A stretch of DNA of 64,000 nucleotides from Streptomycetaceae bacterium (GTDB taxonomy: Bacteria; Actinomycetota; Actinomycetes; Nanopelagicales; Nanopelagicaceae): the NCBI GenBank assembly GCA_027483765.1, contig JAIXTW010000002.1:62001-126000 (forward strand), in the 5' to 3' direction. The notes under the pieces are model-generated. The model did no database searches and had not been told where the DNA came from. It worked only from the letters and a program-made list of their open reading frames with translations. Within the stretch, counting starts at the first letter, position 1, and the number at the start of each line of letters is the position of its first letter. The translations under genes were made by a program, and so were the position numbers. Shown piece after piece: positions 58,008 to 63,770 of this stretch.

Positions 58008-59042
58008 TTATTTAAGTAGTGATGTTCCGGTTGAGCGAAGATCTTCACATGCTACGCCAACGCGAGCTGCGATTCCTGCTTCTGCCGCTTTGCCCCACGC
58101 ACGTGGGTCGTAAGCCTTTTTATTACCAACTTCACCGTCGATCTTGAGTACGCCATCGTAATTCTTCATGATGTGATCAACGACTGGGCGGGTAAATGCA
58201 TATTGAGTATCAGTATCGATATTCATCTTGATAACACCGTAATCAAGTGATTCGCGAATCTCTGAAAGTAGCGAACCAGAACCGCCATGGAATACGAGAT
58301 CCATTGGCTTGCTTCCAGCTGCTAGACCTAACTTGGCAGCAACTGCGTCCTGCAAAGTCTTAAGAATCTTTGGCTGCAAAACTACATTGCCTGGCTTGTA
58401 CACACCGTGAACGTTTCCGAAAGTTGCCGCCACCATGTAGCGAGCCTTCGCATCTGTTCCAAGAGTTTCAATTGTCAGAAGTGCATCTTCTGGAGTTGAG
58501 TAGAGCTTGGCATCGTGCTTTGCCTCGATGCCATCTTCTTCTCCGCCTACAACGCCAATTTCAATTTCAAGCACAGTATGTGCCGCAACTGATTTGTCGA
58601 GAAGCTCGCGTGCGACCTTCATATTCTCTGGCATATCGACTGCTGATCCGTCCCACATGTGTGAGTTAAATAGTGGCTGCTTACCTTCTTTAATGCGCTG
58701 CGCACCGATTTCAAGAAGTGGACGCATAAATCCATCTAGCTTCTCTTTCGGACAGTGATCTGTGTGGATTCCGATGTTGACGTTGTAATTCTTCGCAACG
58801 ACGTGTGCAAATTCTGCTAACGCTACAGCGCCATCGATCATGTTCTTAACTGTTGATCCAGATGCGTACTCGGCTCCACCCCAAGAAAATTGAATAATTC
58901 CATCGGACTCTGCTTCGGCGAAACCACGAATAGCACCGATAATTGTTTGTGATGATGAAACGTTGATTGCTGGATAAGCAAATGCGCCGGCTTTCGCGCG
59001 ATCTAACATTGCTGCATAAACTTCAGGGGTTGCTATTGGCAT
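58008..59042 (-). CDS. fbaA: Class II fructose-bisphosphate aldolase
   Basis: A zinc-dependent glycolysis and gluconeogenesis enzyme, 344 aa. Landmarks are FAYPAINVSSSQTI, the zinc-site HTDHCPKEKLDG, the loop GVVGGEEDG, ATFGNVHGVYKPG, LVFHGGSGS and MNIDTDTQYAF, fitting subclass A. GGGAG lies about 6 nt upstream. It heads the purine gene run. Confidence 0.96.
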   Translation of the reverse strand: MPIATPEVYAAMLDRAKAGAFAYPAINVSSSQTIIGAIRGFAEAESDGIIQFSWGGAEYASGSTVKNMIDGAVALAEFAHVVAKNYNVNIGIHTDHCPKEKLDGFMRPLLEIGAQRIKEGKQPLFNSHMWDGSAVDMPENMKVARELLDKSVAAHTVLEIEIGVVGGEEDGIEAKHDAKLYSTPEDALLTIETLGTDAKARYMVAATFGNVHGVYKPGNVVLQPKILKTLQDAVAAKLGLAAGSKPMDLVFHGGSGSLLSEIRESLDYGVIKMNIDTDTQYAFTRPVVDHIMKNYDGVLKIDGEVGNKKAYDPRAWGKAAEAGIAARVGVACEDLRSTGTSLLK

Positions 59043-59434: not shown

Positions 59435-61399
59435 ATGAGCGGCAATTCTGAATCACTAGAAAATCTATCTACTGAAAATAGAACATTTGCTCCCTCGCCT
59501 GAATTTACGACCCAAGCAAATGCAAAGAGCGACCTCTACGCGCAAGCTGATAAAGATCGATTAGCTTTCTGGGACGAACAGGCAAATGCGCTGAGTTGGC
59601 ATAAAAAGTGGGATAAGACGCTGCAGTGGGATTCACCATTTGCACAATGGTTTGTTGGCGGCAAGATCAATGCAACGGTAAACGCGCTAGACCGTCACGT
59701 TGAAGATGGTAACGGCGATCGCATCGCTTTCCACTTTGAGGGCGAACCAGGCGACACTCGCACAATTTCATATGCCCAGTTGCTTGCCGATGTCAGTAAA
59801 GCGGCGCATGCTCTCACCGAAATTGGCATTAACTCTGAAGATCGTGTTGCGATTTACATGCCACTCATTCCGGAAGCGATTGTTGCGATGTTGGCATGTG
59901 CGCGCATTGGCGCAATTCACTCTGTGGTCTTTGGTGGCTTCTCAGCCGATGCTCTCTTATCTCGAATTCAAGATGCCGATGCAAAACTCGTCATCACAGC
60001 TGATGGAGGATTTAGAAAAGGTGCAGCATTTGCACTCAAGCCCGCGGTAGATGAAGCGCTCAAAGGTGCTACCAATGTTTCTCAGGTTCTGGTTGTTAAG
60101 CGCACCGGACAAGAGACCGCATGGGTAGCAGGCCGAGATATCTGGTGGCACGACCTTGTTGATCGACAGAGTTCAACTCATACGCCAGAATTTTTCGATA
60201 GCGAACACCCACTATTTATCCTTTACACCTCAGGAACTACTGCAAAACCAAAGGGAATTTTTCACACCACGGGGGGCTATCTCACTCAAGCGGCGTATAC
60301 CCACAAAGTTGTTTTCGATATCAAACCTGAATTAGATATCTACTGGTGCACTGCCGACGTTGGCTGGATTACCGGACATACCTACATGGTTTATGGGCCG
60401 CTAATAAATGGATCAACACAAGTAATTTATGAAGGCACACCTGATACCCCACATAAGGGGCGAGTCTTTGAAATTATTGAAAAGTACGGCGTCACCATTT
60501 TGTATACCGCGCCAACTTTAATTCGCACGTGGATGAAATGGGGAGATGAGTTCCCAAATAAATTTAATCTCACATCTCTACGACTACTGGGCTCAGTGGG
60601 CGAACCAATTAACCCGGAAGCGTGGATGTGGTACCGACAAGTTATCGGTGGAGATAAATGCCCGATTGTTGATACTTGGTGGCAGACCGAAACGGGCGCA
60701 ATCATGATTTCGCCTCTACCTGGAGTTACCGCAACTAAACCAGGTTCTGCGATGCGACCAATTCCAGGAATCAGCGCAAAGGTTGTTGATGACAATGGTG
60801 TTGCAGTTCCGAACGGACGCGGTGGCTATCTAATTCTTGATCAACCATGGCCTTCAATGTTGCGTGGAGTCTGGGGCGAGACTGAACGTTATAAGGAGAC
60901 CTACTGGTCACGCTTTAAAGGAATTTACTTTGCCGGCGATGGTGCAAAGCTCGATGATGACGGCGCCATCTGGCTTATGGGACGTGTTGATGATGTGATG
61001 AATATTTCTGGTCACCGCATTTCTACAACTGAAGTTGAGTCAGCGCTCGTATCTCATGAAGCGGTTGCAGAAGCTGCCGTTGTAGGCGCAGCTGATGCGC
61101 TGACCGGCCAAGGAATTGTGGCATTCGTTATTTTGCGGGGCGGAATAGCTCATGCCGACGGCGATGTACTGATCAAAGAGCTTCGCAACCACGTTGCGAA
61201 AGAGATTGGCGCCATTGCAAAACCGCGTCAAATTATGGTGGTCAATGAACTTCCTAAGACTCGAAGTGGCAAGATTATGCGCAGGCTCTTAAAAGATGTA
61301 GCTGAAAATCGTGCAGTTGGAGATGCAACCACACTTGCCGATCCCAACGTGATGAAGTTGATTTCAGATGGACTAAAAACTTCTAAAGACGAGGATTAG
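59435..61399 (+). CDS. acs: Acetyl-CoA synthetase
   Basis: Activates acetate to acetyl-CoA through acetyl-AMP. ATG 59435 gives 654 aa, the usual length, preferred to a TTG 24 bases upstream. The P-loop is YTSGTTAKPKGI, later motifs GSVGEPINPEAW, TWWQTETG and YFAGDGAKLDDDG, and the acetylation-sensitive lysine is in PKTRSGKIMRR. The 3' end overlaps the convergent CvpA-family gene by 17 bp. Confidence 0.96.
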   Translation: MSGNSESLENLSTENRTFAPSPEFTTQANAKSDLYAQADKDRLAFWDEQANALSWHKKWDKTLQWDSPFAQWFVGGKINATVNALDRHVEDGNGDRIAFHFEGEPGDTRTISYAQLLADVSKAAHALTEIGINSEDRVAIYMPLIPEAIVAMLACARIGAIHSVVFGGFSADALLSRIQDADAKLVITADGGFRKGAAFALKPAVDEALKGATNVSQVLVVKRTGQETAWVAGRDIWWHDLVDRQSSTHTPEFFDSEHPLFILYTSGTTAKPKGIFHTTGGYLTQAAYTHKVVFDIKPELDIYWCTADVGWITGHTYMVYGPLINGSTQVIYEGTPDTPHKGRVFEIIEKYGVTILYTAPTLIRTWMKWGDEFPNKFNLTSLRLLGSVGEPINPEAWMWYRQVIGGDKCPIVDTWWQTETGAIMISPLPGVTATKPGSAMRPIPGISAKVVDDNGVAVPNGRGGYLILDQPWPSMLRGVWGETERYKETYWSRFKGIYFAGDGAKLDDDGAIWLMGRVDDVMNISGHRISTTEVESALVSHEAVAEAAVVGAADALTGQGIVAFVILRGGIAHADGDVLIKELRNHVAKEIGAIAKPRQIMVVNELPKTRSGKIMRRLLKDVAENRAVGDATTLADPNVMKLISDGLKTSKDED

Positions 61400-61853
61400 C
61401 AAGTACTTTCTCGACTTCTTTCTTAATATCAGCAATCACTTGTGGAGCGTGGTTGGTTACCTGTAAATAGAAGCGACTCTCAGAAACTGAATTCTGCCCG
61501 GCTGACCAAGGTGCCCACAATAAAATTGTGCCAATAACGTAGAAGAGAAGTACGTACTTACCCATCTCAAATGCGCTGCCTAGAAGTGAATCAAGGAAGC
61601 GAAGTGGGCCGCGAATAACTGTGACTTTCAGACCTTTCGCTAGCAAGGTTCCTACAAATGCAGCAGCATAAGCGCCCACAATAATTGCCAGAATAAGCCA
61701 TCCTGATTGATTGTATTTAACGACTAAGTACATCGCACCTACTCCACCAGCGATGAAGAAAACTGTTCTGATAATTGTTCGCAAGAGGCCGTTCTTATAA
61801 CCATTGAAGAATGCGGCAATAGCGACAGCTGCGAAGACTAAATCAAAAATCAT
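61383..61853 (-). CDS. CvpA-family membrane protein (lacking the MarP protease domain)
   Basis: A 156-aa protein with four transmembrane helices (FDLVFAAVAIAAFFNGYKNG start is typical of CvpA). In mycobacteria the corresponding gene next to nth encodes MarP, a CvpA domain fused to a periplasmic trypsin-like protease of ~400 aa. Here the protein stops after the membrane part and a short helical tail. Overlaps the TlpA gene as ATGA. Confidence 0.8.
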   Translation of the reverse strand: MIFDLVFAAVAIAAFFNGYKNGLLRTIIRTVFFIAGGVGAMYLVVKYNQSGWLILAIIVGAYAAAFVGTLLAKGLKVTVIRGPLRFLDSLLGSAFEMGKYVLLFYVIGTILLWAPWSAGQNSVSESRFYLQVTNHAPQVIADIKKEVEKVLANPRL

Positions 61854-62374
61854 TTCACTCCCAGATACTTTATCGCCGCTAGTTCAATCTCTTCAGTAGA
61901 TCTAAATGGTCCGAATTTCTTATGTACTACTGTGCCAGATGCGTCTACAAACCAGGTGACTGGCACGCCCATACCAAATTCACCACGAGTAGCCCCGGTA
62001 GCGTCATAAAGAATGGGCCAAGAAATTCCGTTGCCTTTAACGAACGTCCTTACACTTTCCTGGTTTTTCTCTTCTACCGCAATTCCTACAACTCCAACTT
62101 GATCGCTGTATTTCGCTAAGAAATGTGCGAGGTGAGGCAACTCCTGCTTGCAAGGTTTACACCACGTACCCCATACATTAATGAGTACGGGTCCGCGGAT
62201 GGAATCAGCAGAGATAGCGCCACCGCCACCAAGACATTCCAACGGCACGCCAACTCCACTTTCAACTGCAATGTTTTCGCAGCTAATTACTTCACCTTTT
62301 ACCTTTATCGGTTGCACAGCAGAGCATCCGGTAAGTACAAGTATCAGCGCGAGGAATCCAGAGATTTTTCTCAT
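61850..62374 (-). CDS. TlpA-like thioredoxin-fold lipoprotein
   Basis: A 174-aa exported lipoprotein. The signal peptide ends in the lipobox LTGC with C17. The thioredoxin-like domain has the active site [11 protein letters not shown] (C72, C75) and a cis-Pro loop GVPVTWFVD. It likely reduces disulfides or cytochrome c apoproteins outside the membrane. Coupled by ATGA overlaps to both nth and the CvpA gene. Confidence 0.9.
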
Positions 62375-63069
62375 CGAAAATCCTTATCGGTCTTGACCAG
62401 TAATTGCGCCTTAACTTTATCCATCTCACCAATTCCAACGGATGGGCACATCTTGGCCACGGGACATGCGCCACAGGCTGGTTTGCGTGAATGACAAATG
62501 CGACGTCCGTGCCAGATCATTCGTTGCGAAAGATTTGTCCACTCTCCTTGCGGAATAAGTGCGCCTACCTCATGTTCAACCTTCACCGGATCTTGCGATG
62601 TTGTCCAACCAAATCTGCGTGAGAGACGACCAAAGTGTGTGTCGACAGTAATTCCTGGAATACCAAATGCGTGGCCTAGGACAACATTGGCAGTTTTTCT
62701 ACCAACGCCTGGCAGTGTGATGAGTTCTTCAATAGTCGCCGGAACTTTTCCACCAAAATCTTCAACGAGTTTCGTTCCAAGACCTTTCAGATGTCTAGCC
62801 TTTGCATGATAAAAACCTGCCGAAAAAATATAGTCCTCGATTTCCGCAAGTGGTGCTCGAGCGTAATCTTTTGCTTTCTTATATTTTTTAAAGAGCGCAG
62901 GCGTTAGCGCATTGATCCGTTTATCTGTGCACTGCGCTGATAAGACAACCGCCACCGTTAGTTCGAGCGGGTTTTTGAAATCTAATTCGCAACGTACTTC
63001 TGGGTAGGTTTTTGTGAGAACTCGATAGATAGCCCGAGCGCTTTTTCGAGTTTCGCTATCGGCTCCCAT
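62371..63069 (-). CDS. nth: Endonuclease III
   Basis: A bifunctional base-excision glycosylase/AP lyase for oxidised pyrimidines. At 232 aa it has the helix-hairpin-helix [12 protein letters not shown] with catalytic K125, catalytic D143 ([10 protein letters not shown]), and the [4Fe-4S] ligands C192, C199, C202 and C208. Leaderless: TAGTTT is 6 nt upstream of ATG in a promoter shared with crp. Confidence 0.96.
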
Positions 63070-63086
63070 GCGAGTAAACTACCGAC
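63070..63086. promoter_or_regulatory. 17-bp bidirectional leaderless promoter, nth / crp
   Basis: The whole gap is 17 bp. Plus-strand TAAACT (63075-63080) is 6 nt from the crp GTG. Minus-strand TAGTTT (63081-63076) is 6 nt from the nth ATG. The two -10 hexamers overlap by five bases, so only one polymerase can open the site at a time. Confidence 0.65.
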
Positions 63087-63770
63087 GTGCCCAAAGAAGA
63101 TGAAGTCGTAAGACGCGCCCCGCTCTTTACCGCCCTCGATGATGCTCAAGCCTCATCGCTTCGCGCTTCCATGGATTCGGTAAAGATTAATAAGGGCGGA
63201 ATCCTCTTTAAAGAGGGCGACGAGGGCGAACACGTCTACGTCATTCTCGAAGGAAAGCTCAAGCTCGGTACTTCAAGCGGAGACGGTCGCGAAAACCTGC
63301 TCTCCATCCTTGGACCCGGCGAAATGTTTGGTGAACTCTCACTCTTTGATCCAGGACCACGCACATCGACTGCAACTGCGGTCACTGATGCAAAACTCTT
63401 ATCACTTAGCCATGAAAAATTGATTCCATGGCTTAAGGGAAATCCTGAAGTTTCACTGCATCTCCTTGCGCGTTTAGCGCAACGACTACGCCGCACCAAT
63501 GAAGCAGTGGGCGATTTAGTCTTCTCAGATGTTCCTGGGCGCGTTGCAAAAGCACTGATGGATTTGGGTACACGTTTTGGTAAGAAGAGTGATGAAGGCC
63601 TATTCGTTCACCACGATCTGACCCAGGAAGAACTTGCCCAACTAGTTGGCGCATCGCGCGAAACAGTAAATAAGGCGCTTGCAGATTTTGCTGGCCGCGG
63701 ATGGCTCAAACTCGATGGTCGCGCAGTATTGATTACAGATATAGAACGCCTCGAGAAGCGCGGCAAATAG
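63087..63770 (+). CDS. crp: Crp/Fnr-family transcriptional regulator (CRP)
   Basis: A 227-aa global regulator like the mycobacterial Rv3676 and GlxR. The cAMP-binding domain has FGELSLFDPGPRTSTAT with E83 and R92 as expected ligand contacts, a long dimerisation helix, and a winged HTH (DLTQEELAQLVGASRETVNKALADF). It begins at GTG with a leaderless -10. The stop is adjacent to the stop of the convergent RidA gene (TAGCTA). Confidence 0.96.
   Translation: MPKEDEVVRRAPLFTALDDAQASSLRASMDSVKINKGGILFKEGDEGEHVYVILEGKLKLGTSSGDGRENLLSILGPGEMFGELSLFDPGPRTSTATAVTDAKLLSLSHEKLIPWLKGNPEVSLHLLARLAQRLRRTNEAVGDLVFSDVPGRVAKALMDLGTRFGKKSDEGLFVHHDLTQEELAQLVGASRETVNKALADFAGRGWLKLDGRAVLITDIERLEKRGK

Follow-up and report, generated by a model that had tools for sequence, protein, structure and literature searches.

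A single bidirectional −10 element very probably drives two leaderless mRNAs, those of crp and nth, in a freshwater actinobacterium with a genome of 1.29 Mb. The two genes form a divergent pair in the 64,000-nucleotide stretch of DNA that we analysed (the window). According to the positions of the ORFs, nth starts at 63069 on the minus strand and crp at 63087 on the plus strand, so that only 17 bp, GCGAGTAAACTACCGAC (63070–63086), lie between them. An earlier note on this DNA had pointed to TAAACT facing crp and TAGTTT facing nth, offset by one base on opposite strands and each 6 nt from its start codon, and this description of the gap and boxes is exact in the sequence. The features of the locus are as follows.

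61383–61853, minus strand: ORF of 156 aa that looks by eye like a membrane protein; 4-bp overlap with the thioredoxin-like gene
61850–62374, minus strand: thioredoxin-like gene with TlpA/ResA-type matches, all under cut-offs, overlapping nth by 4 bp
62371–63069, minus strand: nth, endonuclease III, 232 aa, ATG start
63050–63060, plus strand: candidate crp −35 region GTTTCGCTATC in nth codons 4–7, read as TTTCGC or TTCGCT, 18 or 17 bp from the −10 element
63069, minus strand: predicted nth transcription start, the A of ATG, from the leaderless signature
63070–63086, no strand: 17-bp gap separating the start codons of nth and crp
63075–63080, plus strand: crp −10 element TAAACT, 6 nt ahead of GTG
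63075–63081, no strand: common near-symmetric −10 box TAAACTA (TANNNTA)
63076–63081, minus strand: nth −10 element TAGTTT, 6 nt ahead of ATG
63087, plus strand: predicted crp transcription start, the G of GTG, from the leaderless signature
63087–63770, plus strand: crp, regulator of the Crp/Fnr family, 227 aa, GTG start

The nth gene product passes the curated cut-off for endonuclease III (TIGR01083, 256.6 versus 211.7 bits). For the crp product the best model is NF008732 (E 6e-30), with 104 bits against a curated cut-off of 266, and the protein is assigned at family level only, as Crp/Fnr type. A weak second Crp match is present in a 613-residue open frame of two large genomes of the genus (G077:C31:15474-15749 and G078:C10:2892-3164). 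The successive 4-bp overlaps from 63069 down to 61383 point to a probable operon of three genes driven from the nth side, in which the thioredoxin-like gene and the 156-aa ORF are probably cotranscribed with nth.

The start codons, which are predicted from sequence, might be misassigned, with both leaders lying within the neighbouring gene and the boxes overlapping by chance. We regard this as extremely improbable. No earlier crp start is available because an in-frame TAA occupies 63075–63077, and the next in-frame start codon inside crp is Met29. Moreover, no Shine-Dalgarno-like sequence was seen by eye in the gap for either start, and the box is conserved across the genus (see below).

Each half of the box resembles a leaderless promoter

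Leaderless genes of Actinobacteria are described, in the available text of two reports, as carrying TANNNT some 12 bp upstream of the start codon (PMC3160421; PMC4633059), and GTG is accepted as a leaderless first codon in mycobacteria (PMC4633059). Both crp and nth show this signature: the first T of TANNNT lies 12 bp ahead of the start, the first codon is ATG or GTG, and no Shine-Dalgarno sequence is visible by eye. They differ from the usual leaderless genes in that a single box is available for two. A consensus scan found no σ70-type promoter at the gap.

The signature was assessed as a local rule in 448 ORFs with a minimum length of 100 codons, taken from the window and from 400 kb of another genus member, G131. 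Ahead of 872 in-frame ATG or GTG codons, TANNNT is found at 6 nt in 92 cases and at 7 nt in 41, compared with 3–12 cases at each other distance between 0 and 25 nt. The out-of-frame control (965 ATG or GTG codons) yields 3 and 4 occurrences at 6 and 7 nt, respectively. The 6-nt peak recurs separately in the window, in G131 and in two further samples, G013 and G143, where genes with the signature number 16 of 59, 115 of 389, 46 of 174 and 36 of 165, respectively. Given this peak 6–7 nt before in-frame starts, each half of the nth/crp box looks like an ordinary leaderless promoter of the group.

Comparison with known bidirectional promoters

Bidirectional promoters with a common symmetric −10 element have been described by Warman, Grainger, Wade and colleagues (PMC10268837; PMC12825309, NAR 2026). 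In the available text of these papers, the commonest spacing between start sites is 18 bp, within a class range of 7–25 bp, and positions −7 and −11 are base-paired reciprocally. The nth/crp region matches this description in its predicted features. If both mRNAs are leaderless, the crp and nth start sites lie 18 bp apart and both are purines; given these starts, the T at 63080 serves as −7 for crp and −11 for nth, and the A at 63076 as −11 for crp and −7 for nth, which reproduces the reciprocal −7T/−11A arrangement in one −10 box between two opposite mRNAs. A T at −18 is common at each start of the known class but not essential; here it is present for crp (63069), whereas the nth strand carries C for nth.

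The nth/crp region departs from the known bidirectional promoters in that each start codon would coincide with a start site. The promoter would then fill the intergenic region, with its spacing also fixed by two reading frames. The word ‘leaderless’ is absent from the text available for the two papers on bidirectional promoters, and among titles and abstract openings in the open-access literature we found no account of a common nth/crp promoter or of a bidirectional promoter that yields a pair of leaderless mRNAs. The new aspect would therefore be a bidirectional promoter whose two transcripts are both leaderless, combining two known kinds.

In the mechanism that we propose, the sigma factor would take TAAACTA either way, as TAAACT toward crp or as TAGTTT toward nth, and transcription would start with the first nucleotide of each start codon, making both mRNAs leaderless. 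The intergenic DNA would then consist of little beyond the −10 box and two 5-nt flanks, and the −35 contact for crp would be located within nth. In this genus, nth would have no promoter of its own at this place and would use the opposite face of the crp box; an A immediately following the crp element TAAAGT would allow this. The geometry, the conservation and the states in other genera are observed directly, whereas we infer the start sites, the two-way transcription, the order of events and the mutual exclusion of polymerases. The claim that the region is close to the minimum for a divergent promoter holds for two boxes with 6-nt spacers that have most of their bases in common, but it is no absolute limit, as start-site spacings of 10 bp are reported in the accessible part of the bidirectional promoter literature (PMC12825309).

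Conservation of the box within the genus

Of 135 genomes searched from the genus, 109 have a crp match, and the 26 that do not are mostly incomplete assemblies. The upstream region was read in all 109, giving 110 loci (30 + 78 + 2) because G105 has two. A common TANNNTA placed in frame with both genes is present in 108 of 108 loci, as TAAAGTA in 68 and TAAACTA in 40; the two further loci agree, so that TAAA[G/C]TA is found in 110 of 110. The gap is 17 bp in 44 loci (nth and crp spacers of 6 and 6 nt), 18 bp in 56 (6 and 7 nt) and 19 bp in 10 (7 and 7 nt). All 110 loci have GTG as the crp start, and nth begins with ATG in 105 and GTG in 5. The earlier note had proposed to align the nth–crp gaps of relatives in search of conserved symmetry.

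Seven of the eight columns of TAAANTAC are invariant in 108 of 108 loci, and the middle one is G or C. By comparison, heterozygosity is 0.23–0.67 in the six columns to the left and the five to the right (the outermost of which are partly start codon), and the third positions of nth codons 2–50 have a mean of 0.53 and a lowest value of 0.036. Among the box bases, the first T is needed by crp only and the last A by nth only. As both are invariant in the same 108 loci, selection appears to act on both directions. Although these loci share kinship and are not independent trials, the conservation argues against a chance origin of the box between the two genes. The prediction of two leaderless promoters within one overlapping box is strongly supported by the preservation of a base specific to crp, a base specific to nth and 6–7-nt spacers on both sides.

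These data also bear on the possibility that crp alone uses the box; nth would then be expressed by read-through or from a promoter within crp, and the match that faces nth would be a by-product of symmetry. The nearest genus read, g4, does keep the crp element TAAAGT without the additional A. However, crp has no need of that last A, which is nonetheless invariant across the genus and occurs in only 5 of the 55 loci from other genera of the family that have a crp signature (0 of 7 in g4). Furthermore, the nth spacer stays at 6 or 7 nt despite indels, and in most other-genus loci a leaderless signature stands in front of nth itself, which indicates that a promoter at the nth start is the usual state. 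The region of crp codons 4–6, where a −35 element for nth would fall, is not obviously promoter-like; this fits expression of crp alone from the box, but on balance we consider that reading unlikely.

The strong conservation and rough symmetry of TAAANTAC, adjoining a regulator gene, might instead indicate an operator, GTAAA(G/C)TAC, rather than a promoter. The distance to both starts is nevertheless fixed at 6–7 nt, which is the rule for leaderless genes in the sampled genome parts, and in g4 the crp box alone holds the same place. The core AAN is asymmetric and the leading G is not conserved. A search for a Crp-type site, TGTGA-N6-TCACA with at most two mismatches, found none in or near the gap or crp, the nearest in the window being at 58034. 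An operator is accordingly a very improbable explanation, and a bidirectional −10 element is preferred. As a separate observation, TTGTGATTGATCGCACTG, which is Crp-site-like by eye, lies at most 90 bp upstream of the crp match in many Streptomyces records (for example, L156 and L161).

A putative −35 contact within nth

The earlier note had reasoned that all other promoter contacts must lie inside coding sequence. This expectation gains some support for crp, from nth codons 4–6, and none was seen for nth. Codon 4 of nth is NAT in 106 of 108 genus loci even though the encoded residue varies among Asp, Asn, His and Tyr, and codon 6 is GAA in 101, CAA in 5 and GAG in 2 of the 108. As a codon-usage baseline, codons 13–200 of the same nth genes use GAA for 833 of 1,261 Glu and GAT for 759 of 869 Asp residues. 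The constraint on nth codons 4–6 at the place expected for the crp −35 region suggests a −35 contact within nth. No comparable signal for nth was seen inside crp, where no good nth −35 element is visible.

The arrangement in other genera and the order of events

A search of 201 genomes of the family yielded a crp match in 158, of which 119 are outside the genus. From 60 of these 119 we read 61 loci (60 regions plus L118), and a common nth/crp box is absent in all 61. Leaderless signatures are present for both genes in 46 of the 61, and one or both were not found in the other 15. Separate leaderless boxes with 44–98 bp between the starts are seen in 44 of 61. Two g2 loci, L208 and L209, with a gap of 0 through a TTG start, were treated as start-search artefacts and left out of this range. 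The long gaps in relatives that would count against a common promoter are found only outside the genus, where these 44 loci show two separate boxes. Named records in which both genes were found (Streptomyces, Nocardioides and other Actinomycetota) have the same two genes in a mostly divergent orientation and mostly about 100–1000 bp apart, a distance that alone excludes a common box.

All seven g4 loci carry separate leaderless boxes for both genes, with gaps of 66–80 bp. The crp box is TAAAGT in six and TAATGT in one, 6–7 nt ahead of GTG, and the nth box is TANCCT or TAATCT, 7 nt ahead of the nth start. With the bases that follow it, the crp box reads TAAAGT[G/C]C in six loci and TAATGTGC in one. 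In a tree built from nth together with the first 120 aa of Crp (94 of 95 rows, including 31 of the 110 genus loci), g4 groups with g1 and g5 (100/97), g1 and g5 group together (99/99) and g4 is not one clade; the tree does not settle the inner order. The g5 locus L118 keeps TAAAGTA beside nth, but its crp has a separate TAAGAT. Because the locus has a long branch and its genome a listed contamination of 7%, this split arrangement carries little weight for the order of events. In the simplest history, nth would have lost its own promoter and, through a single base change in the stem lineage of the genus, captured the crp box.

Frequency and recurrence of the pattern

The symmetric motif alone is at chance frequency. 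The pattern CAY-N5-TANNNTA-N5-RTG occurs once in the window, where 0.15 is expected and at least one occurrence appears in 15 of 100 shuffles, and once in the 1.29 Mb genome, compared with twice for a reversed-pattern control. Chance does not account for its position between two real divergent genes together with its conservation. Across 201 genomes of the order there is no excess (294 versus 564 for the control), the control count being larger in 127 genomes, equal in 35 and smaller in 39, nor does one appear in 109 genomes that belong to the class but not to the family (95 versus 93). The arrangement is therefore no general genomic feature.

Twenty pattern matches from other genera, chosen mainly for recurrence, were inspected. 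In seven of the 20, the match is flanked by divergent ORFs that each reach 100 aa; this is not so in the other 13. The clearest recurrence is in g17, where divergent genes for gcvT and an M17 aminopeptidase (both families confirmed in L289) have the same 17-bp TANNNTA layout (L289 964-986, L290 1001-1023 and L291 894-916), with a near-identical motif in 16 of 16 g17 genomes. In g10, a gene for an MFS transporter and one for an unnamed protein diverge from a 17-bp gap with a common box (L286 1037-1059 and L287 1013-1035); at a third locus (L288 1132-1154) the partner ORF stops after 49 aa, and a similar motif is present in 4 of 4 g10 genomes. The rest of the seven are an MFS/MauE-like pair in g6 and a methyltransferase/unknown pair in g17. 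Matches in three g1 genomes (L326 and L328–L331) were rejected as cases, as at most one adjoining ORF reaches 100 aa. The common-box solution thus appears to have evolved repeatedly, albeit rarely.

A survey of 96 divergent pairs from four samples found leaderless signatures on both sides in 18, the smallest gaps being 17, 22, 23 and 24 bp. There is no such pair among the 18 from G013 and one among the 17 from G143. Because 18 pairs are too few, we do not claim a preference for fixed gaps. The G131 pairs with gaps of 22, 23 and 24 bp (L276 13009-13036, L267 6521-6549 and L277 2041-2070) have boxes with one TA in common, and they match or come near a reported start-site spacing of 23 bp in bidirectional promoters.

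Implications

The earlier note had further proposed that competition for one opening site couples a global regulator with a repair gene. Such coupling of crp and nth through the box is plausible because opposing polymerases cannot bind simultaneously, according to the portion consulted of the work on bidirectional promoters (PMC12825309). The same source portion states that low basal activity minimizes interference between opposing polymerases, and coupling may therefore be restricted to conditions in which one side is activated.

A broader reading that joins these observations is tentative and, in our judgement, somewhat more likely to fail than to hold as a whole. Streamlining would have deleted the nth promoter, and nth would have captured the antisense face of the crp −10 element through a change from TAAAGT[G/C] to TAAAGTA, locking the pair at the geometric limit of one box and two leaderless starts. 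The same solution would have arisen separately at the gcvT/M17 pair of g17 and the transporter pair of g10, leaderless lineages would drift to fixed start-to-start spacings, and mutual exclusion would tie the level of a global regulator to a repair operon.

The nth/crp region would represent a natural minimal bidirectional promoter that lacks leaders, has hardly a base to spare and is strictly conserved throughout the genus; the neighbouring genus g4 offers a candidate for the state from which it arose. With this region one could test directly whether regulation makes use of polymerase competition at a common −10 element, how divergent genes come to have one promoter through deletion, and to what extent streamlined genomes can reduce their intergenic DNA when expression is leaderless.
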